DNA from: Roseovarius sp. MMSF_3359 | GTDB lineage: Bacteria > Pseudomonadota > Alphaproteobacteria > Rhodobacterales > Rhodobacteraceae | Length of the DNA stretch: 64,000 bases | NCBI RefSeq assembly: GCF_030733385.1 | Contig: NZ_JASHJC010000001.1 | Location: 124,001 to 188,000 of the forward strand | Direction: 5' to 3' | Shown: in pieces, positions 3,393-62,047 of the stretch | Position numbering within the stretch: position 1 is the first letter of the stretch | How the letters are laid out: each line of letters starts with the position of its first letter | Program-made: the position numbers and the translations under genes | The notes under the pieces: generated by a model | Told to the model about the DNA's origin: nothing | The model's input: the letters and a program-made list of their open reading frames with translations, nothing else | Database searches by the model: none

Positions 3393-5906
3393 ATGAAAAC
3401 CAATGTCAAAGCCCTTGTCGTCGGCGGCGGTGCCGTCGGGACGTCGATTGCCTATCACCTGGCCAAGGCGGGCTGGGACGATGTGATGCTTCTGGAGCGC
3501 GATGAACTGACCTCGGGCTCCACCTGGCACGCCGCGGGCCTGTTGCCGCTCTTCAACATGTCCTACGCCACGACCCATATCCACAAATACTCGGTCGATT
3601 TCTACAAGACCCTCGAAGAGGAATCCGGTCTGAATGCGGGCTTTGCCGTTGTGGGCAACCTGCGCATGGCGCAGACGCAGGAGCGCATGGATGAATACAT
3701 GCTCTATGCCTCCACCGCCGAGACCTGCGATGTGAAATACGAATGGCTGACCCCGGATCAGATCAAGGAACGCTGGCCGCTCATTAACACCGAGGACCTC
3801 AAGGGCGCGATTTACCATACCGAAGACGGCTACATTAACCCCGCTGACGTGACCCAGGCGATGGCCAAGGGTGCGCGCCAACGCGGTGTGATGATCGAGC
3901 GTAAATGGCAGGCCGACGCCTTCCACTGGAACGGTGAGGCGTGGGAAGTCACCTGCTCGAAAATGGTCGAGAAGGGTGGCAACCTTGTCCCCTCGGAAGA
4001 ACAGATTGTGATTACCGCCGAACATGTCGTGACCGCCTCGGGCAACCACGCGCAACGCACGGCCAAGATGCTCGGGATCAAGTTCCCCGCGATCCCGGTC
4101 GAGCACCAGTTCATCGTGATGGACAAGGACCCTGAACTGGTCAAATACCGCGAAGCGGGCGGGCAGGAACATCCGGTTGTCCGCGATGCCGATGCGCAAA
4201 GCTATGTCCGCGAGGAACGCGGTGGCTGGATCCTGGGCGTCTATGAGAAAAATGCGCCGGCCTGCTTTGAACATGGCGTGCCGGACAGCTTCCGCGCCGA
4301 CCTCTTCCCGCTCGATCTGGAGCGGATCGAAGAGCAATACATGGCGATGATCCACCGCGTGCCGTCCTGCGAAGAAGCGGGTCTCAAGGACGATTTCAAC
4401 GGGCCGATCTGCTACACACCCGACGGCAACCCGCTGGTGGGCCCGGCGCCGGGCCTGCGCAACATGTGGCTGGCCGAGGGCTTTTCCTTCGGGATCACCG
4501 CCGCGGGCGGCACCGGGTATTACCTCGCGCAGATGATGGTCGATGGCGAGGCCGAGATCGACATGGCGTCGCTCGACCCGAAACGCTATTCGCAAAGCTG
4601 GATGACCACCGAGTTTGCCGCGCGCAAGAACGAGGAATGCTACGACCACGTCTACATCCTGCACCATCCGGATGAAGAGCGCCCCGCCTGCCGCCCGCTG
4701 CGCACGGCGCCCGCCTATGACCGGCAAAAAGCACGCGGTGCGCAGTTCGGCTGGGTCAATGGCTGGGAGCGTCCGAACTATTACGGCCCCCTCGATGCGC
4801 CGGACAATTTCGACCATGACAGCCGCTCGTTCCGTCGTGGCGCATGGTGGGAATACGCGGTCGAAGAGGCCAAGGCGATCCGAGAAGGCGTGGGCCTGAT
4901 CGACGCGACCGCCTTTACCAAGCACCGCGTTTTCGGGGCAGGTGCCGCGGCATTCCTCGACTGGTTTACCTGCAACAAGCTGCCGAAAATCGGCCGCATC
5001 AACCTGACCTATGCGCTGACCGCAATTGGCACGACCCGTACGGAATACACCATCGTGCGCGAAGGCGAGAACGAGTTCTACCTGGTCTCCGCCGGTGCCT
5101 GGACGGAATACGATCAGGACTACCTGCTCAAGGCGATCGAGGACTGGAGCACGGGCAGTGCCAATGATTGGGTTGGCGTGCATGACGTGACGACGCAATG
5201 GGGCGTCTTTGCCATCGCGGGCCCGAAATCGCGTGACGTCCTACGCGAGGTCATCAACGATGCCGATCCCGAAACCGCGCTGTCCAACAAGCGGTTCCCG
5301 TGGCTCTCGGCGCGCAAGATCGAGCTGGGCATGTGCCCGGTGAACGCCATCCGCGTTGCCTATACCGGGGAGCTGGGTTGGGAATTGCATCACCCGATGG
5401 AGATGCAGAACTATCTCTTCGATCTGCTGGAAAAGGCCGGTGAGAAGCATGGCATGAAACTGGTTGGCGCGCGGGCGCAGAACTGGCTCCGGCAGGAGAA
5501 GAGCTACCGGGCCTTCGGGACCGAATTGGGTCGCGACGCCACACCGCTTGAGGCCGATCTGCCGCGCTTTGTCGATCTGGACAAGGACTTCCACGGCAAG
5601 GACAAGCTGGTCGAAACCGGCATCCGTGCCAAATGCTGCACGCTGTTGATCGACGGGCCGGGTGATGCCGATCCATGGGGCCGCGAGGCGCTTTATACGA
5701 TGGACGGTACCCGTGTCGGGCGCCTGACATCCGGCGGCTATTCGGTGGTCTTCGGCAAGTCGATCGGCATGGGCTATGTCACGCCCGATCTCGCGGTCGA
5801 GGGCACGAAACTCCAGGTCAAGATCCAGGACAAGCTCTGGGATGCCGTCGTCACCTGCGACAGCCCCTATGATCCCAAAAACGAGGTGATCCGCATCGAC
5901 GGATGA
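3393..5906 (+). CDS. FAD-dependent dehydrogenase with GcvT-type C-terminal domain, dimethylglycine/sarcosine dehydrogenase-like (paralogue 1)
   Basis: The 837-residue product has an N-terminal FAD-binding dinucleotide fold (GGGAVGTSIAYHLAKAGW, residues 9-26) and the motif STWHAAG. In dimethylglycine dehydrogenases the His of this motif carries covalent FAD. The C-terminal half is a GcvT/aminomethyltransferase-like, folate-binding domain. Such enzymes oxidatively remove N-methyl groups and pass the C1 unit to tetrahydrofolate or release formaldehyde. Two paralogues lie at 36117 and 43543. It stands alone with its own terminator, so its substrate cannot be read from neighbours; betaine-derived methylamines are likely but unproven. 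Confidence 0.85.
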   Translation: MKTNVKALVVGGGAVGTSIAYHLAKAGWDDVMLLERDELTSGSTWHAAGLLPLFNMSYATTHIHKYSVDFYKTLEEESGLNAGFAVVGNLRMAQTQERMDEYMLYASTAETCDVKYEWLTPDQIKERWPLINTEDLKGAIYHTEDGYINPADVTQAMAKGARQRGVMIERKWQADAFHWNGEAWEVTCSKMVEKGGNLVPSEEQIVITAEHVVTASGNHAQRTAKMLGIKFPAIPVEHQFIVMDKDPELVKYREAGGQEHPVVRDADAQSYVREERGGWILGVYEKNAPACFEHGVPDSFRADLFPLDLERIEEQYMAMIHRVPSCEEAGLKDDFNGPICYTPDGNPLVGPAPGLRNMWLAEGFSFGITAAGGTGYYLAQMMVDGEAEIDMASLDPKRYSQSWMTTEFAARKNEECYDHVYILHHPDEERPACRPLRTAPAYDRQKARGAQFGWVNGWERPNYYGPLDAPDNFDHDSRSFRRGAWWEYAVEEAKAIREGVGLIDATAFTKHRVFGAGAAAFLDWFTCNKLPKIGRINLTYALTAIGTTRTEYTIVREGENEFYLVSAGAWTEYDQDYLLKAIEDWSTGSANDWVGVHDVTTQWGVFAIAGPKSRDVLREVINDADPETALSNKRFPWLSARKIELGMCPVNAIRVAYTGELGWELHHPMEMQNYLFDLLEKAGEKHGMKLVGARAQNWLRQEKSYRAFGTELGRDATPLEADLPRFVDLDKDFHGKDKLVETGIRAKCCTLLIDGPGDADPWGREALYTMDGTRVGRLTSGGYSVVFGKSIGMGYVTPDLAVEGTKLQVKIQDKLWDAVVTCDSPYDPKNEVIRIDG

Positions 5907-6916: not shown

Positions 6917-6940
6917 GCCCTGTCGGACCATTCTTTTTGG

Positions 6941-6983
6941 GTGAAGCGCGGCGGGATGACGTGTCGCGCTTCACCTTCTTTTG
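6941..6983 (+). terminator. Stem-loop with U-rich tail, probable terminator
   Basis: GTGAAGCGCG pairs perfectly with CGCGCTTCAC across a 14-base loop and is followed by CTTCTTTTG. It is likely to end the transcript of the DnaB-like gene or of a small RNA that includes the preceding hairpin. Confidence 0.5.
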
Positions 6984-7208
6984 ATGGTCAACGCAATGGG
7001 AGGAGGTATTGCCGTCAGCCATCTTGTACCCTCACTTTGCCGCATCGCGGCATCGAATCAACAAAAAATGCTGCAATCGCGAAATATTCCGATCGTGGCA
7101 GGTGCGGATGACTGGTTTTTAGGGCGGATGATATTTCTTTGGGCAGTTTTTAGGTGGCCGGTTGAAAAACGCTTGAGATGTGATCGCTTCTCGGCCACAG
7201 TCGGGGTC

Positions 7209-7372
7209 CGAGGTGCCGTCTTGTCAAGGCGGAGAATTGGGAAGCCGGTGCAAATCCGGCGCTGCCCCCGCAACGGTAAGGATGGGGGATGCTGCAATAG
7301 CCACTGGGCCGCGACGGCCTGGGAAGGTGCCGCATCCGAGAGCCCCGCCAAGCCCGGAAACCAGCCTTGGAC
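7209..7372 (+). ncRNA. Cobalamin (B12) riboswitch
   Basis: The hallmark segments are in order: GAAGCCGGTGCAAATCCGGC with GCTGCCCCCGCAACGGTAA, then GCCACTG, GGGAAGGTG and finally GGAAACCAGCC. These correspond to the conserved adenosylcobalamin aptamer core and its pairing elements. It faces a short ORF 115 bases downstream (7487-7753). A 6-bp hairpin, CCGGCC/GGCCGG at 7457-7476, reaches the ribosome-binding site of that ORF and may be the expression platform. The exact ends are approximate. Confidence 0.93.
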
Positions 7373-7486
7373 AAACGTCAAACCGCGGGGGGCGGTGGGG
7401 ACGGTTGACATGGCCCCGATGACGCCTGCCATCCTCCTGATCTTCCTCCGCCCCATCCGGCCCGGGGTGTGGCCGGGGAGAAGAAG

Positions 7487-7753
7487 ATGATGAGCATTAC
7501 CCGCATTCTCAACGGGCTCGAATGTATGAATGAAACCGGAAACGACGCTGTGCAGGCGGCGCGTCTGGGGTTTCTGGAATGGGCGTTCTGCGCGCGTGAC
7601 GGCGGCACACCGCAAGCCGCACGCGCCGCTTTGGGAGATCCGGCGGCACAAAATGCCAGTAGTGATGCAGCCAAGGCCTTTGTCGCCTATCTGCGCGATG
7701 CGACGCGGCCCGTCGTGGCCCGTCCCCGCCGCCGCTCCCGTCTGCTGCACTGA
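7487..7753 (+). CDS. Orphan small protein downstream of the cobalamin riboswitch (88 aa)
   Basis: A GGGGAG ribosome site at 7475-7480 precedes two adjacent ATG codons (7487 and 7490). The product is helical, with the segments AARLGFLEWAFCARDGG, ARAALGDPAA and AAKAFVAYLRDATRP, and a basic Arg-rich end (RPRRRSRLLH). There is no signal peptide, membrane segment or motif of a cobalamin enzyme or transporter. I do not recognise it. The only function clue is position: it is the first and only gene behind the riboswitch, and after it the strand is occupied by opposite-strand small RNAs. It may be a B12-responsive small protein, a leader, or the remnant of a B12 operon. Confidence 0.6.
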   Translation: MMSITRILNGLECMNETGNDAVQAARLGFLEWAFCARDGGTPQAARAALGDPAAQNASSDAAKAFVAYLRDATRPVVARPRRRSRLLH

Positions 7754-7768
7754 GCTTCGCGCGAAACG

Positions 7769-7806
7769 AAAAAACGGCGGCACCCAGGGAGGAGAGGGTG
7801 CCGCCG
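7769..7806 (-). ncRNA. CcsR-type (cuckoo) small RNA, distal copy; also acts as terminator
   Basis: On the minus strand an 11-bp stem (7775-7785 with 7796-7806) displays CTCCTCCCT in its loop and is followed by TTTTTT, a complete rho-independent terminator. It is the last of four hairpins with anti-Shine-Dalgarno-like loops downstream of the DUF1127 gene, the layout of the CcsR1-4 locus of Rhodobacter sphaeroides. Confidence 0.85.
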
Positions 7807-7814
7807 CTCTGTCT

Positions 7815-7850
7815 ACGGATGACCTCAGGGAGGAGGAGAAGGTCATTCGT
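7815..7850 (-). ncRNA. CcsR-type small RNA, third copy
   Basis: A 7-bp stem (ATGACCT at 7819-7825 pairing with AGGTCAT at 7840-7846) exposes a loop reading CTCCTCCTCCCT on the minus strand. The loop motif is shared with the other three hairpins while the stem sequence differs, showing that the loop is what is conserved. Confidence 0.82.
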
Positions 7851-7880
7851 ATGGCGTTTGGGCCATCGGCCCGGATTTTG

Positions 7881-7920
7881 GGCAGTAGCGGCGCCCAGGG
7901 AGGAGGTGGTGCCGCTACCG
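7881..7920 (-). ncRNA. CcsR-type small RNA, second copy
   Basis: An 8-bp stem (7885-7892 with 7911-7918) presents CCTCCTCCC in the loop on the minus strand, the exact motif for which the family is named. Confidence 0.83.
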
Positions 7921-7923
7921 CAA

Positions 7924-7958
7924 TACAGATGCCCTAAGGGAGGAGAAGGAGCATCCGA
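7924..7958 (-). ncRNA. CcsR-type small RNA, first copy
   Basis: The short stem GATGC/GCATC (7928-7932 with 7951-7955) presents CTCCTCCCTT on the minus strand. It begins 10 bases after the DUF1127 stop codon, consistent with processing from a shared transcript. Confidence 0.78.
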
Positions 7959-7968
7959 TCTTCTGCGC

Positions 7969-8190
7969 TCAGGCGCGTGTTCCGTAGACCGCGGCGCTGG
8001 CGGCGGCGCGGATGTTCGAACGGTCGAGGCCCAGGTCCTTCAACTCGGCCGGTCCCAGTTTCGACAGTTCCGCAACCGTGCGCTTGTAGGCGCGATAGTC
8101 TGCGATACGGGTCATGAGCGCATACACGGCTGCGCTGATTTCAAGTTGCAGGCCACTAACGGCGCTGCGGTTTTGGGTTGCAAATGCCAT
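7969..8190 (-). CDS. ccaF1: DUF1127 protein, CcaF1 homologue
   Basis: The 73-residue product ends with the DUF1127 core LSKLGPAELKDLGLDRSNI, a small basic Arg/Lys-containing helical module. In Rhodobacter sphaeroides the homologue CcaF1 is an RNA-binding protein cotranscribed with the CcsR small RNAs and involved in their maturation; the transcript is stress induced through RpoH-type sigma factors. Here the same order is seen on the minus strand: DUF1127 gene, then four CCUCCUCCC hairpins. AAGGAG lies 8 bases before the ATG. I could not assign the promoter securely; TTGTG at about 8281-8285 (minus) is one candidate -35 element. Confidence 0.88.
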   Translation of the reverse strand: MAFATQNRSAVSGLQLEISAAVYALMTRIADYRAYKRTVAELSKLGPAELKDLGLDRSNIRAAASAAVYGTRA

Positions 8191-8299
8191 TGTCCGGCTC
8201 CTTGCGTCATGTCGGTTCTGCGCTGACCCTCAAAAGGTCGCCGCGCTTGTTGGGGTATAGATACGCCGATGCTGCAGGTGCACAACCCCCGACCGGAAC

Positions 8300-8318
8300 A
8301 ATGCTGCTATGCAGCATT
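8300..8318. promoter_or_regulatory. 8-bp inverted repeat between ccaF1 and mrp
   Basis: AATGCTGC and GCAGCATT are separated by TAT. The site lies 110 bases upstream of the DUF1127 gene and 122 bases upstream of mrp, in the divergent promoter region. It could be an operator; no regulator can be named. Confidence 0.4.
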
Positions 8319-8439
8319 TGCATGGCAAGAACTTCCCTAACGTCATGTAATAATACAACTTTATGGTTAACGTGATGAGCTGCTATTGCCCTTTGCCAGA
8401 AAACCATCACCTATGGTGCAGACATCAGGGGAGGATCGA

Positions 8440-9504
8440 ATGACCATTGATCGCAGTACCGTCGAAGCCCGGCTTGCGCAGATTGCGCTGCCCGATGGTG
8501 GTGACCTCTTGTCACGCGATCTGGTGCGCGCCCTGACCATCGAGGGCGGCACGGTGCGCTTCGTGATCGAGGCCCCCAGTACAGAGTTGGCGCAGCAGAT
8601 GGAGCCATTGCGTGCCGCTGCCGAGCGCGCCGTGCTGGCGCTTGAAGGCGTCTCGGAGGTTTCCGTCGCGCTGACCGCACATGCGCCGACCCCCAAACCG
8701 CCCAGCCTCAAGATCGGCGGCCATCCCAAGGCGCAGACGTCGCCACCGAAACCCGCGAGTGTGAAATCCATCCTGGCGGTTGGATCTGGCAAGGGTGGCG
8801 TGGGCAAGTCCACCGTTTCCTCCAACCTCGCCGTGGCCCTTGCGCGTGCAGGCCGGCGCGTGGGTCTTCTCGATGCGGATATCCATGGGCCGTCGCAACC
8901 CCGCATGATGGGGGTCACTGGGCGGCCTGCCAGCCCGGATGGCAAGATCATCGAGCCACTGCACGCCCATGGTGTCACCCTCATGTCGATTGGCCTGATG
9001 CTCGACCCGGACAAGGCGGTGGTCTGGCGCGGGCCGATGTTGATGGGCGCATTGCAGCAGATGATAAGCCAGGTGAACTGGGGCGACCTGGATGTCCTGA
9101 TTGTCGATCTGCCGCCCGGGACGGGAGATGTGCAGCTGACGCTTTGCCAGAAGGCCGAACCCTCCGGCGCGATCATCGTCTCGACGCCGCAGGATGTGGC
9201 CCTTTTGGACGCGCGCAAGGCGATGGACATGTTCAGGACGCTGAAAACGCCAATCTTGGGTCTCATAGAAAACATGTCGATCTTCCATTGCCCCAGTTGC
9301 GGGTATGAGGCGCATATCTTCGGCCATGGCGGGGTTGCCGACGAGGCCAGGAAACTGGATCTGCCATTTCTGGGGGCGTTACCAATTGATCTGGACACGC
9401 GGCTTGCCGGGGACGCGGGGACACCGGTCGCCGCGGGCGATGGCCCGATGGCCGAGGCCTATGCGGCATTGGCCAAGCGGTTGATTGACGGTGGGGTCGC
9501 CTGA
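8440..9504 (+). CDS. Mrp/ApbC/NBP35-family iron-sulfur cluster carrier ATPase
   Basis: This cytoplasmic P-loop ATPase binds and transfers Fe-S clusters to target apoproteins. The 354-residue product has an N-terminal DUF59/MIP18-like domain (1-80), a Pro-rich linker (82-106), the deviant Walker [11 protein letters not shown] (115-124), [12 protein letters not shown], the Walker B region [14 protein letters not shown], and the cluster-binding CPSC pair. AGGGGAGGA precedes the ATG at 8440. The open frame begins further upstream but without a ribosome site. It is divergent from ccaF1. Confidence 0.93.
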
Positions 9505-35281: not shown

Positions 35282-35673
35282 GCATGGCGCAGGGATCCTG
35301 CCTGTGTGGCGCCGTTACCTTTACCGTCGAGACCGCGTTGAAGGACCCGCTTGCCTGTCACTGCAAACAATGCCGGCAGCAGTCTGGGCACTATTTCGCC
35401 GCAGCACATGCGCCCAAAGAGGCGGTGAATTTCTCCCGCCAGGACGGGCTGACGTGGTTTCGTGCGAGCGACATCGCGAGCCGTGGCTTTTGCCGGGAAT
35501 GCGGCGCGACGCTGTTTTGGCGGGCGGATCATGGGGATGAGATCGCCGTGGCCCTGGGTGCGATTGATGGTCCCACGGGATTGTCGCTGGGCCGTCATGT
35601 CTGGGCCAATGCCAAGGGTGATTACTACGACATTGCCGATGGCGTGCCGCAACAAGAGGGGTTTGAAGGATGA
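35278..35673 (+). CDS. GFA-family protein (glutathione-dependent formaldehyde-activating-like), copy 1
   Basis: The 131-residue protein has the zinc-binding cysteine pattern of the GFA fold: CLCG near the N-terminus, CHCKQC, and FCRECGATLFW. The named family member was proposed to speed addition of formaldehyde to glutathione; many homologues have unknown roles. It overlaps the genes on both sides by four bases and is next to a second GFA copy. Two in-frame ATGs (35278 and 35284) are possible. Confidence 0.87.
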   Translation: MSMAQGSCLCGAVTFTVETALKDPLACHCKQCRQQSGHYFAAAHAPKEAVNFSRQDGLTWFRASDIASRGFCRECGATLFWRADHGDEIAVALGAIDGPTGLSLGRHVWANAKGDYYDIADGVPQQEGFEG

Positions 35674-36047
35674 TAAAGGGTCGATGCCTGTGCGGGGACG
35701 TGGGGTTTTTCGTGGATGGCCGTTTGGGCCGCGCCGCGGCCTGCCATTGCAGCCAGTGCCGGAAGCAGTCGGGACATGTCTGGGCCTCATCGAGCGCGGA
35801 TGAGAGCGACATAACCATCACCGGACCGGTCAAATGGTTTGCCGCCAGCGAGAGCGCCAAGCGCGGCTTCTGCCCGAAATGCGGGTCTTTCCTGTTCTGG
35901 AAGGCCCATGACGAAGACGCGGTCAGCTTCTCCCTGGGGGCGCTGGATGAACCGACCGGGATCAGGCTCCAATGCCATATCTTCGTGGCCGACAAAGGCG
36001 ATTACTACGACATCATCGACGATTTGCCACAATCGGAAATGTCGTGA
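35670..36047 (+). CDS. GFA-family protein, copy 2
   Basis: The 125-residue protein repeats the pattern CLCG, CHCSQC and FCPKCGSFLFW and ends DKGDYYDIIDDLPQ, very like copy 1 (KGDYYDIADGVPQ), so the two arose by tandem duplication. Demethylation of N-methyl substrates by the FAD enzyme downstream can release formaldehyde, which gives these proteins a plausible job in detoxification, though this is not proven for the family. Confidence 0.87.
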   Translation: MIKGRCLCGDVGFFVDGRLGRAAACHCSQCRKQSGHVWASSSADESDITITGPVKWFAASESAKRGFCPKCGSFLFWKAHDEDAVSFSLGALDEPTGIRLQCHIFVADKGDYYDIIDDLPQSEMS

Positions 36048-59867: not shown

Positions 59868-61853
59868 ATGGGAACAGGCAGAGATTTGAGTGAAGTTTCC
59901 CCGTTGCCTGAAGACAGGGATCAACTTTCCAGTGACAAGCCCTGTATTCAGGTCCGGCTTCTGGAGACGACGGATGTGCATTCCAACCTGCTGCCGTTCG
60001 ATTACTATGCCGACAATTGCGAGACGTCATTTGGCCTCGCGCGTACTGCGAAACTGATCAAGGCGGCCCGTGCTGAGGCGGAGAATTGCCTGTTGTTGGA
60101 CAATGGAGATTTTCTCCAGGGCACGCCGCTCAGTGATCTCACCGCGCAGCCTGATAGCGGGTGGCAGGGACCGCATCCGGCGGTGACGGCAATGAACTAC
60201 CTGAGCTACGATGCCGCCGGGATTGGCAATCACGAGTTCAATTTCGGCCTCGACTGGTTGCGCGATGCACTTGCGGATGCGGACTTCCCGGTCACCTGTG
60301 CCAATGCGGTAACCGAGCAGGCGGAGGATGTCACCGCGGACAAGACGTTGCTGCCGCCCTACCTGCTTCTTGATCGGCAGATGGTTGATGATCGCGGGGA
60401 TCTTCATGACCTGCGCATCGGCATCATTGCCCTCCTGCCGCCGCAGATTACCACCTGGGATCATTTTCACCTGCAAGGGCGCCTGACCGCTCGCGATATC
60501 ATCGAGGCCGCCCGCGCCTGGGTGCCGCGGATTCGGGCCGAGGGGGCGGACATCGTGGTGGCCCTTGCCCATAGCGGGATCGACGGGCAGGACTTCTACC
60601 CGATGAAGGAAAACGTGGCGCTGGCCCTGGGCGAATTGCCCGGCATCGACGCCATTCTGGCCGGTCACACCCATGAGGTTTTTCCCGGTCCCGGGACCGC
60701 GGATATGGGCGGCGCCAATGCCAATCGCGGGACGCTGAACGGCACTCCCGCAGTCATGGCCGGGTTCCGGGGGTCGCATCTTGGTGTCCTCGATCTCTAT
60801 TTGCAACGGGGTTCGTCGGGCTGGACGGTTGCCGCGCACCGGTCCGAAGCACGACCCGTTATCGCGCCCGGCGGTGCTGATCCCGCGCCCCCGGACGAGA
60901 CCCTCAAGGAGCTGCTCTGGCCCGCGCATCAGCATACGCTGAACCTGATCCGCAAACCGCTCGGCAAGACCACGGTTCCGCTGCACAGCTACCTGGCGCT
61001 GGTGCGCAACGATCCCGCCACGCAGCTTGTCAGCCGTGCGCAGGCGGCGGCACTGGCCCGCATGGTCGACGGGACCCCGGATGCCGAGTTGCCCATCCTG
61101 TCGGCAAACGCGCCATTCAAGACTGGCGGTCGCGGCGGGCCGAAATACTTCACCGAGATCCCGCCGGGTGACTTCCGGTTGCGAAATGCCGCGGACCTTT
61201 ACGCCTTTCCCAACACGCTGTGCGGACTTCGCTTGACCGGCGCGCAGTTGCGCGACTGGCTGGAACGCGCGGCGGCCTGCTTCAACCGGATCGGCCCGGT
61301 GGAGGACGATCAACCCCTGATCAATCCGCGGATGCCGGGCCACAATTTCGATGTGATCGACGGGCTGACCTATTTGATCGACCTGTCGCAACCGGCGCGG
61401 TTCGATGACAAGGGCCGGGTGATCGACCCGGCCGCGCATCGCATTGCTGACCTCTGTCATGCCGGGCAGCCGATTGACGAGGAACAGGTGTTTCTGCTCG
61501 CCACGAACAGTTTTCGCGCCCATGGCGGCGGCCCCTATCCGCAACTGCCCAAAGAGAGCTTTGCCATCAGCAGCCGCCAGCCGATACGCGATATCGTTGC
61601 CCAGTACGTGCAGGACACGACCACGCCGGAGATGACCGCGCAGCCCATCTGGCGTTTCGCGGCCCCGCCTGGCGCCACGGCTGTCTTCGACACCGGGCCG
61701 GGCATCCGCCGGTACGCGGATGAACTTGCGGCCCTGGGAGCGACCGATCTAGGCGATACATCCGCGGGCTTCGCCCGGCTGCGCCTGCCGCTTGGCGGAC
61801 CCACCACGCACAGTCTTGCGAATCCGGGCGGTGCGGCTTATGTAACCCCCTGA
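59868..61853 (+). CDS. 2',3'-cyclic-nucleotide 2'-phosphodiesterase/3'-nucleotidase-like protein (CpdB-like)
   Basis: About 661 residues, with a metallophosphatase domain (LLETTDVHSNLLPFDYY, GIGNHEFNFGLDWL, ILAGHTHEVFPGPG) and a C-terminal 5'-nucleotidase substrate domain (YAFPNTLCGLRLTGAQL). CpdB hydrolyses 2',3'-cyclic and 3' nucleotides in the periplasm; this protein, however, shows no signal peptide. Two starts are possible: TTG at 59847 and ATG at 59868; neither has a strong ribosome site, and the TTG falls inside a palindrome. The stop codon overlaps the first bases of the SRP RNA gene. Confidence 0.85.
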   Translation: MGTGRDLSEVSPLPEDRDQLSSDKPCIQVRLLETTDVHSNLLPFDYYADNCETSFGLARTAKLIKAARAEAENCLLLDNGDFLQGTPLSDLTAQPDSGWQGPHPAVTAMNYLSYDAAGIGNHEFNFGLDWLRDALADADFPVTCANAVTEQAEDVTADKTLLPPYLLLDRQMVDDRGDLHDLRIGIIALLPPQITTWDHFHLQGRLTARDIIEAARAWVPRIRAEGADIVVALAHSGIDGQDFYPMKENVALALGELPGIDAILAGHTHEVFPGPGTADMGGANANRGTLNGTPAVMAGFRGSHLGVLDLYLQRGSSGWTVAAHRSEARPVIAPGGADPAPPDETLKELLWPAHQHTLNLIRKPLGKTTVPLHSYLALVRNDPATQLVSRAQAAALARMVDGTPDAELPILSANAPFKTGGRGGPKYFTEIPPGDFRLRNAADLYAFPNTLCGLRLTGAQLRDWLERAAACFNRIGPVEDDQPLINPRMPGHNFDVIDGLTYLIDLSQPARFDDKGRVIDPAAHRIADLCHAGQPIDEEQVFLLATNSFRAHGGGPYPQLPKESFAISSRQPIRDIVAQYVQDTTTPEMTAQPIWRFAAPPGATAVFDTGPGIRRYADELAALGATDLGDTSAGFARLRLPLGGPTTHSLANPGGAAYVTP

Positions 61854-61946
61854 GAGGTTGGCGCGGGCGAGCGCCTCGCCAACCCGGTCAGATCCGGAAG
61901 GAAGCAGCCGTAACGAGCCCCGCTTGGGTCGTTGTCCAGCCTCTCA
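61851..61946 (+). ncRNA. ffs: Signal recognition particle RNA (4.5S type)
   Basis: The conserved apical domain reads GGTCAGATCCGGAAGGAAGC followed by AGCCGTAACGAGCC, which is the binding site for Ffh. The ends TGAGAGGTTGG and CCAGCCTCTCA pair, giving a 96-base hairpin RNA. The first bases coincide with the stop codon of the CpdB-like gene. An integrase gene begins 101 bases after the RNA's end. Confidence 0.95.
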
Positions 61947-62047
61947 CCTTACAATCATCTATCCCATTGTAATCAAATAAAACCCTTGCAATACAGGGCG
62001 TTTGCCTGTTTGACGGTTACAAATTTGGTTACAAAACGGGTTTGAAC
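61930..62047 (+). other. Probable attachment site: 3' end of ffs followed by integrated DNA
   Basis: An integrase gene directly after a conserved RNA gene suggests integration at its 3' end. The region after 61946 is AT-rich compared with the window. The other att copy should lie beyond the window, so the core repeat cannot be seen here. Confidence 0.5.

Follow-up and report, generated by a model that had tools for sequence, protein, structure and literature searches.

Locus architecture

The minus strand at positions 7769 to 8190 of the window (the whole 64,000-nucleotide stretch of DNA analyzed here) is a CcaF1-CcsR ("cuckoo RNA," CIN1) locus of a Roseovarius-type genome. The gene ccaF1 (7969 to 8190, minus strand) encodes a 73-amino-acid DUF1127 protein (PF06568, 43.6 bits against a cutoff of 23.3). 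Directly downstream on the same strand lies a tandem array of hairpins carrying four copies of CTCCTCCC (7938 to 7945, 7898 to 7905, 7828 to 7835, and 7787 to 7794, all minus strand), the first of them 23 nt past the DUF1127 open reading frame. Hairpin 1 (7922 to 7960), assigned from the fold and its conserved layout, and hairpin 2 (7882 to 7921) make up a first CcsR unit; a small spacer hairpin without the motif (7860 to 7872) follows, and hairpins 3 (7814 to 7851) and 4 (7771 to 7810) make up the second. Hairpin 4 is followed by a U6 tract (7769 to 7774), the likely transcript end, and the two together close the array as a Rho-independent terminator. It is absent from the output of a simple terminator scan, which accepts loops of at most 8 nt; the loop of this hairpin has 10 nt.

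This arrangement agrees with the sequence-only reading, which had identified a CcaF1-CcsR locus from a DUF1127 gene followed by hairpins with a shared loop sequence on differing stems, with the last hairpin doubling as a terminator. Its claim of one loop sequence throughout holds for the core motif, since CTCCTCCC occurs in all four hairpins; the nine-letter CCUCCUCCC is restricted to hairpins 2 and 3, and the loops of hairpins 1 and 4 read UCUCCUCCC. Similarly, its span of 7769 to 8190 encloses the gene and the RNAs, while the transcript would be expected to start further out, near 8250, given promoter elements at 8261 to 8285.

The four hairpins fold as had been predicted. The 200 nt after the ccaF1 stop codon (7769 to 7968) fold at -90.9 kcal/mol (z = -6.78; none of 200 shuffled sequences was equally stable), with all four motifs in loops. 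The window as a whole holds seven copies of CTCCTCCC against 2.54 expected, a number reached by 2 of 100 shuffles. Paired motifs separated by 15 to 45 nt match only twice in the genome, both times at this locus, and a reversed control pattern has no match. A further CcsR-like element at 6937 to 7026 (minus strand; ar14 model, 24.4 bits, E = 0.014), with a single CTCCTCCC at 6998 to 7005, was taken as chance because L060 and L061, whose sequences extend over this flank, hold no further CTCCTCCC on either strand.

The array is convergent with an 87-amino-acid open reading frame (7490 to 7753, plus strand) that lies 3′ of a cobalamin riboswitch (RF00174, 121.2 bits; 7194 to 7753 with the frame, plus strand). 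Among the 15 other genus loci the frame recurs in 8, and L061 has it too; the riboswitch is present in four of seven relatives scanned. Searches of Pfam and NCBIfam with a longer, 94-amino-acid version of the frame gave no match. It is possibly a B12-controlled small protein. Elsewhere in the window, a small SRP RNA gene occupies 61851 to 61949 (plus strand; RF00169, 53.4 bits).

Conservation and covariation of the array

The named relatives used for comparison are an uncultured Roseovarius isolate and Roseovarius aestuarii. Among genomes of the genus, a CcaF1 match at an E value of ≤0.001 was found in 16 of 19 (this genome included), compared with none of 12 genomes of other families. In all 16 loci an array with at least two copies of CTCCTCCC lies downstream of the gene on the same strand. 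Four motifs are present in 11 loci, six in one, three in two, and two exact motifs in the remaining two. One or two exact loops are missing from some relatives, namely L045, L048, L052, L053, and L061. A motif pair was found in 160 of 198 genomes of the family, a count to be read alongside the reversed control pattern, which matches some genomes too. The family arrays that were fetched hold 2 to 26 motifs, mostly as pairs about 40 nt apart. The array with 26 copies of CTCCTCCC (L021, G165:C1:334949-335887) lies behind a DUF1127 gene and is built as a higher-order repeat of about 140 nt comprising three hairpins. A search of plasmids for CcaF1 returned no match at an E value of 1e-5. Spread by phages was considered and rejected: 19 viral stretches match a three-motif pattern, but none of the 19 has a DUF1127 open reading frame by profile, and they look like simple tandem or coding repeats.

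The stems of the array covary. In 15 genus loci, 25 of 41 consensus pairs are changed on both sides, compared with a mean of 12.6 in shuffled controls (none of 500 as high) and with 3 to 13 when pairing partners were slid by one to three columns; the structure was derived from the same 15-locus alignment, which favors it. In single-sequence folds of these loci, 425 of 432 motif bases are unpaired, compared with 42% of all bases. The spacer hairpin has a counterpart in all 15 loci folded, with three of its four consensus pairs changed on both sides. These covariation and fold counts omit L056, with its six motifs, L060, judged to be the same contig as L045, and L061. Stems thus vary and covary while the loop letters are kept; the sequence-only reading had noted differing stems within the single locus.

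The conserved loops bear on whether the hairpins are merely terminators and 3′ stabilizers of the ccaF1 mRNA. Hairpin 4 with its U6 tract is indeed an ordinary terminator, and exact loop motifs are missing in some of the relatives. However, terminators need no fixed loop, and arrays without a gene exist behind the same promoter (see below). We therefore regard a purely terminating and stabilizing role as highly improbable.

Number of CcsR units

Rfam models place the array close to two known RNA families. The ar14 model (RF02344) matches 7769 to 7919 at 51.8 bits (E = 5.9e-9), below its gathering score of 58.8. The CcsR1 model (RF02791) matches hairpins 3 and 4 (7769 to 7855) at 38.2 bits (E = 3.6e-8), below its gathering score of 65.3, and hairpins 1 and 2 (7880 to 7963) weakly, at 17.6 bits (E = 0.044). 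The covariance search that the sequence-only reading had suggested as a check thus finds the locus twice, each time under the model's cutoff. In the family, a CcsR1 match at an E value of ≤0.001 is present in 163 of 198 genomes, only 9 of which exceed the cutoff.

In its own alignment, the CcsR1 model consists of two motif hairpins in 83 nt. The four hairpins here therefore represent two CcsR units and not CcsR1-4, so the four-RNA arrangement that had been read into the locus does not hold. One family genome above the cutoff (G111, 104 bits) illustrates the difference, with four CcsR units, eight motifs, and a DUF1127 protein of 71 amino acids. CcaF1 of Rhodobacter sphaeroides also has 71 amino acids (PMC10253847), and given its score and protein length G111 is probably close to that species.

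A conserved promoter box upstream of ccaF1

An alignment of 17 upstream regions contains two conserved blocks, ATGCANNTGCTGCATAGCAGCATTG and then TTGTGCANNTGCAGCAT with a TAT; the first begins 37 to 38 bp before the second, -35-like TTG block in 16 of 17 rows. In the window, on the minus strand, TTGTGCANNTGCAGCAT lies at 8269 to 8285, its TTG inside a second copy of TGCANNTGCWGCAT, and the TAT of a -10-like element (TATCTA) at 8261 to 8263. Upstream of them, the box ATGCAAATGCTGCATAGCAGCATTG (8299 to 8323, minus strand) is a candidate LsrB site: it contains the form TGCA-N6-GCAT and agrees with the published VtlR box at 13 of 15 positions (the T of TG is replaced by A), a match reached by 2 of 2,000 shuffles of the 250-nt promoter region. 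In L020 and L063, 14 of 15 positions agree. The VtlR operator is published as CAATGCAGCCATGCA (PMC12595884) and, in another form, as GCAT-N3-TG-N3-T (PMC7486931); for LsrB, the published site is TGCA-N6-GCAT, located between -72 and -60 of the LsrB-activated nfeR1 promoter (PMC10746234).

When 50 loci from the family's other genera were scanned with a matrix built from 17 genus-level upstream regions, 44 had the box. Their scores range from 18.4 to 43.4, and every one exceeds the top score among 40 shuffles of its own locus; the shuffles keep base counts only, and the highest in any locus (18.6, L019) stands against a lowest accepted score of 18.4 (L063, whose own best shuffle reached 0.1). 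For L046 the matrix took in a wrong 26-mer, at a box distance of 75 instead of 37 to 38; its true box, seen in the upstream alignment, is ATGCGTTCGCTGCATAGCAGCATTG. The 50 rows include genomes G051 and G091 twice each and G112 at two loci. Six loci were not counted: L021, with its upstream region cut short (386 nt); L019 and L025, with no DUF1127 match; L023, with three motifs before the gene; L066, which scores 13.2 at the expected place; and L016, at -0.5.

Five box-bearing loci (L027, L074, L077, L078, and L079) have no DUF1127 match. In four of them the box lies 118 to 160 nt before the first motif, too short a distance for a DUF1127 gene (in L078 the spacing is 261 nt), so the box goes with the RNA. 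Genome G112 has both kinds of locus, each with a box: L017, linked to DUF1127 with two motifs, and L079, standing alone with six. The conserved box may also serve a divergent mrp/apbC-type P-loop NTPase gene that shares the promoter region (8386 to 9504, plus strand, likely ATG at 8440; PF10609, 321 bits). Such a gene neighbors ccaF1 in 10 of the 15 other loci of the genus, as well as in L061. Within this genome the exact box occurs at one place only and therefore lends no support to a wider regulon. Eight more sites carry one mismatch, compared with two for a control; none is next to a detectable DUF1127 gene, and seven are inside called genes (by a crude caller), the eighth being L104.

The promoter region also accommodates an explanation in which the same operon is driven by RpoHI/RpoHII-type sigma factors alone and the box belongs to another factor, such as PhaR. 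The R. sphaeroides operon was published with an RpoHI/RpoHII promoter (PMC10253847) and not with LsrB, and the TTG and TAT that were published as RpoHI/RpoHII promoter elements are both present at ccaF1. The case for PhaR in turn is that the box contains CTGCATAGCAG. PhaR sites contain CTGC-N3-GCAG. However, such a palindrome leaves the conserved outer ATGCA and CATTG of the box unexplained, and L022 and L066 keep the published VtlR form GCAT-N3-TG-N3-T although their palindrome is disrupted. Furthermore, if the TTG is placed at -36, the spacing puts TGCA-N6-GCAT near -73 to -60, much as in the nfeR1 promoter. Taken together, we consider transcription by RpoH-type factors alone possible but rather unlikely, and prefer a reading in which LsrB/VtlR-type activation would act on top of a stress promoter.

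An LsrB-type regulator in Rhodobacteraceae

An LsrB-type regulator was sought with a profile of LysR proteins encoded next to trxB, which came from 13 of 30 loci fetched from the class (53 genomes with TrxB). The genome studied here encodes one such regulator (C32:60652-61515), at 366 bits compared with 179 for the next LysR protein, and its helix-turn-helix, MDWDKLRIFHAVADAGSLTHAGDQLHLSQSAVSRQ, is nearly identical to that of the trxB-linked LsrB-type set. No LysR gene was found by helix-turn-helix pattern beside its own trxB in a 9-kb stretch. An LsrB-type protein is present in 25 of 26 family genomes searched, the one without a match (G022) being 85% complete. Two genomes of other families were searched with the same profile, giving 540 bits in G252 and only 177 in G224. 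In a tree of unsure rooting, the 25 proteins from Rhodobacteraceae fall into a single group (100/100) with a long stem.

Brucella VtlR is reported to activate three DUF1127 genes and AbcR2 (PMC12595884), and LsrB activates NfeR1, an ar14 RNA (PMC10746234). Agrobacterium VtlR is reported to activate AbcR1, the small RNA VrsA, and atu1667; two of the Brucella genes under VtlR activation are orthologous to atu1667. VtlR and LsrB thus activate partners of the same two kinds as ccaF1 and CcsR. LsrB has been called unique to Rhizobiales (PMC11975290). Among the papers listed in literature searches, which covered sources other than the primary CcaF1-CcsR and cuckoo-family papers, none joins LsrB or VtlR with CcsR.

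Candidate targets in C1 metabolism

We sought start sites in this genome to which the loops could pair. The pattern GGGAGGAG-N3-9-ATG has 18 matches, compared with 6 for a reversed control; two of the 18 hit one gene, another three appear spurious, and the target list drawn from them is post hoc. Among the matched genes, one for an flhR-like response regulator and one for a xoxF-like PQQ dehydrogenase (TIGR03075, 762 bits) are 10.6 kb apart. Both lie in a cluster on another contig (C36:145573-158010; L179 and L180) that comprises the xoxF-like gene, a class III alcohol dehydrogenase of the S-(hydroxymethyl)glutathione dehydrogenase type (TIGR02818, 599.5 bits), a sensor kinase, and the flhR-like gene and contains several strong Shine-Dalgarno sequences. 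Also matched are a gene for a protein of the formate dehydrogenase alpha type, which at 475.9 bits stays below its cutoff, and a small partner gene; a gene whose product has a weak resemblance to methanethiol oxidase (117 bits against a cutoff of 650); and, assigned by reading the sequences, a pufC-like gene and genes for three solute-binding proteins. The flhR-like protein reaches no NCBIfam cutoff (best, ErdR at 147 bits) and owes its name to gene context and 47% identity to a G111 protein. In R. sphaeroides, flhR is reported as a CcsR target (PMC8307010).

For pairing with the best of the window's four loops, five flhR-type start regions (L184 to L188) give -16.0 to -22.8 kcal/mol, compared with -6.3 to -16.2 kcal/mol for ten weaker matches (L189 to L198), so that the groups just overlap. 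The energies cover L184 to L198 among the fetched loci L184 to L213 and were calculated at the ATG judged to be the start; L188 is a match with one internal stop. In a ranking of pairing against 138 called genes, the C36 and C22 regions bring in circularity, because these were fetched for holding GGGAGGAG sites, and only the 59 window genes serve as background. Two genus genomes (G203 and G209) have flhR homologues and no CcaF1 match.

The sequence-only reading had suggested that the RNA may control a formaldehyde-producing locus with GFA proteins in the same window. All 18 GGGAGGAG start sites lie outside the window, and control of the window's formaldehyde genes is therefore not supported. 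For the start of the oxidoreductase (DAO/GCV_T) gene at 3393 to 5906, pairing to the four loops is weak (-5.8 to -8.3 kcal/mol), and the start of the GFA gene at 35670 to 36047 (PF04828, 74.2 bits; the one GFA protein found among 17 window proteins scanned with Pfam) gives intermediate values (-9.8 to -14.5 kcal/mol). By contrast, the loop-complementary starts of the flhR- and xoxF-type genes make CcsR control of C1 genes elsewhere in the genome plausible.

It could be argued that the array is a decoy or a ribosome-level regulator acting on many mRNAs rather than on flhR or other specific targets. The loops are generic anti-Shine-Dalgarno (anti-SD) sequences, and the range of array sizes in the family would suit such a role. 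However, this locus has four loops only, named CcsR targets are reported in R. sphaeroides (PMC8307010), and the related NfeR1 of Sinorhizobium meliloti represses ntrB through anti-SD motifs. We find a general decoy function unlikely and favor repression of particular mRNAs.

Proposed circuit and comparison with known systems

The locus is real and conserved, and it belongs to a type of operon already described. The points added here are the two-unit reading, the spacer hairpin, the range of array sizes, and above all a promoter box common to stand-alone arrays together with an LsrB-type regulator. The gene, its covarying hairpins, the conserved box, and the regulator gene can be combined in one model that we judge to be probable as a whole, in which a CcaF1-CcsR operon of two units, activated by an LsrB/VtlR-type regulator, blocks start sites with its anti-SD loops. 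One transcript starting near 8250 would encode CcaF1 and then carry the two CcsR units of two hairpins, each hairpin presenting an anti-SD loop and the last ending transcription. RNase E and CcaF1, which are reported to do so in R. sphaeroides, would cut the precursor into CcsR RNAs. The loops, imitating part of the ribosome, would pair with GGGAGGAG-type Shine-Dalgarno sequences and block translation, the candidate targets being flhR- and xoxF-type genes, the formate dehydrogenase-type gene, and some solute-binding proteins. The LysR regulator would activate from the candidate site, with the second half-copy lying over the -35 region.

In Roseovarius, such an LsrB circuit would throttle C1 oxidation (flhR, xoxF, and formate dehydrogenase), and the loop-complementary flhR- and xoxF-type start sites make it possible to test directly whether CcsR controls C1 metabolism in a marine roseobacter. 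More broadly, we give roughly even chances to a Rhodobacteraceae-wide arrangement in which an LsrB/VtlR-type redox LysR regulator controls both ccaF1-CcsR operons and stand-alone arrays through the 25-bp box, as an ancestral alphaproteobacterial circuit. If confirmed, box and regulator would join work on Rhizobiales LsrB/VtlR (NfeR1, AbcR, and DUF1127 proteins) with work on CcaF1-CcsR in Rhodobacter, suggest that the Rhodobacter operon may receive a redox signal in addition to RpoH, and call into question the uniqueness of LsrB to Rhizobiales as stated in PMC11975290.

Three known systems can be compared with the locus. The closest is CcaF1-CcsR1-4 of R. sphaeroides (RSP_6037; RF02791), which shares the DUF1127 gene, tandem two-hairpin RNAs, CCUCCUCCC-type loops, and a Rho-independent terminator. 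It has four units where the Roseovarius locus has two, whose CcsR1 scores fall short of the model's cutoff, and it was published with the RpoHI/RpoHII promoter, whereas a conserved LsrB-like box is described here. A second is alpha-r14/NfeR1 of Rhizobiales (RF02344), with stacked hairpins, conserved anti-SD loops, and differing stems as found here, and with an LsrB-type promoter site, matched at the Roseovarius locus by a candidate box in the sequence. NfeR1 differs in having three hairpins and its own RpoD-type promoter, while the Roseovarius RNAs follow ccaF1 and stay below the ar14 gathering score; the stand-alone family arrays (L027, L074, L077, and L079) resemble the stand-alone NfeR1 of Rhizobiales. 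The third is the Rhizobiales LsrB/VtlR regulon of AbcR small RNAs, NfeR1, and small DUF1127 proteins, which, like the locus described here, brings together an operator-like box, a LysR regulator, and a DUF1127 gene with an anti-SD RNA. Here, unlike in that regulon, the host belongs to the Rhodobacteraceae, the regulator gene is unlinked to trxB in its own genome, and binding of the regulator to the box is predicted.
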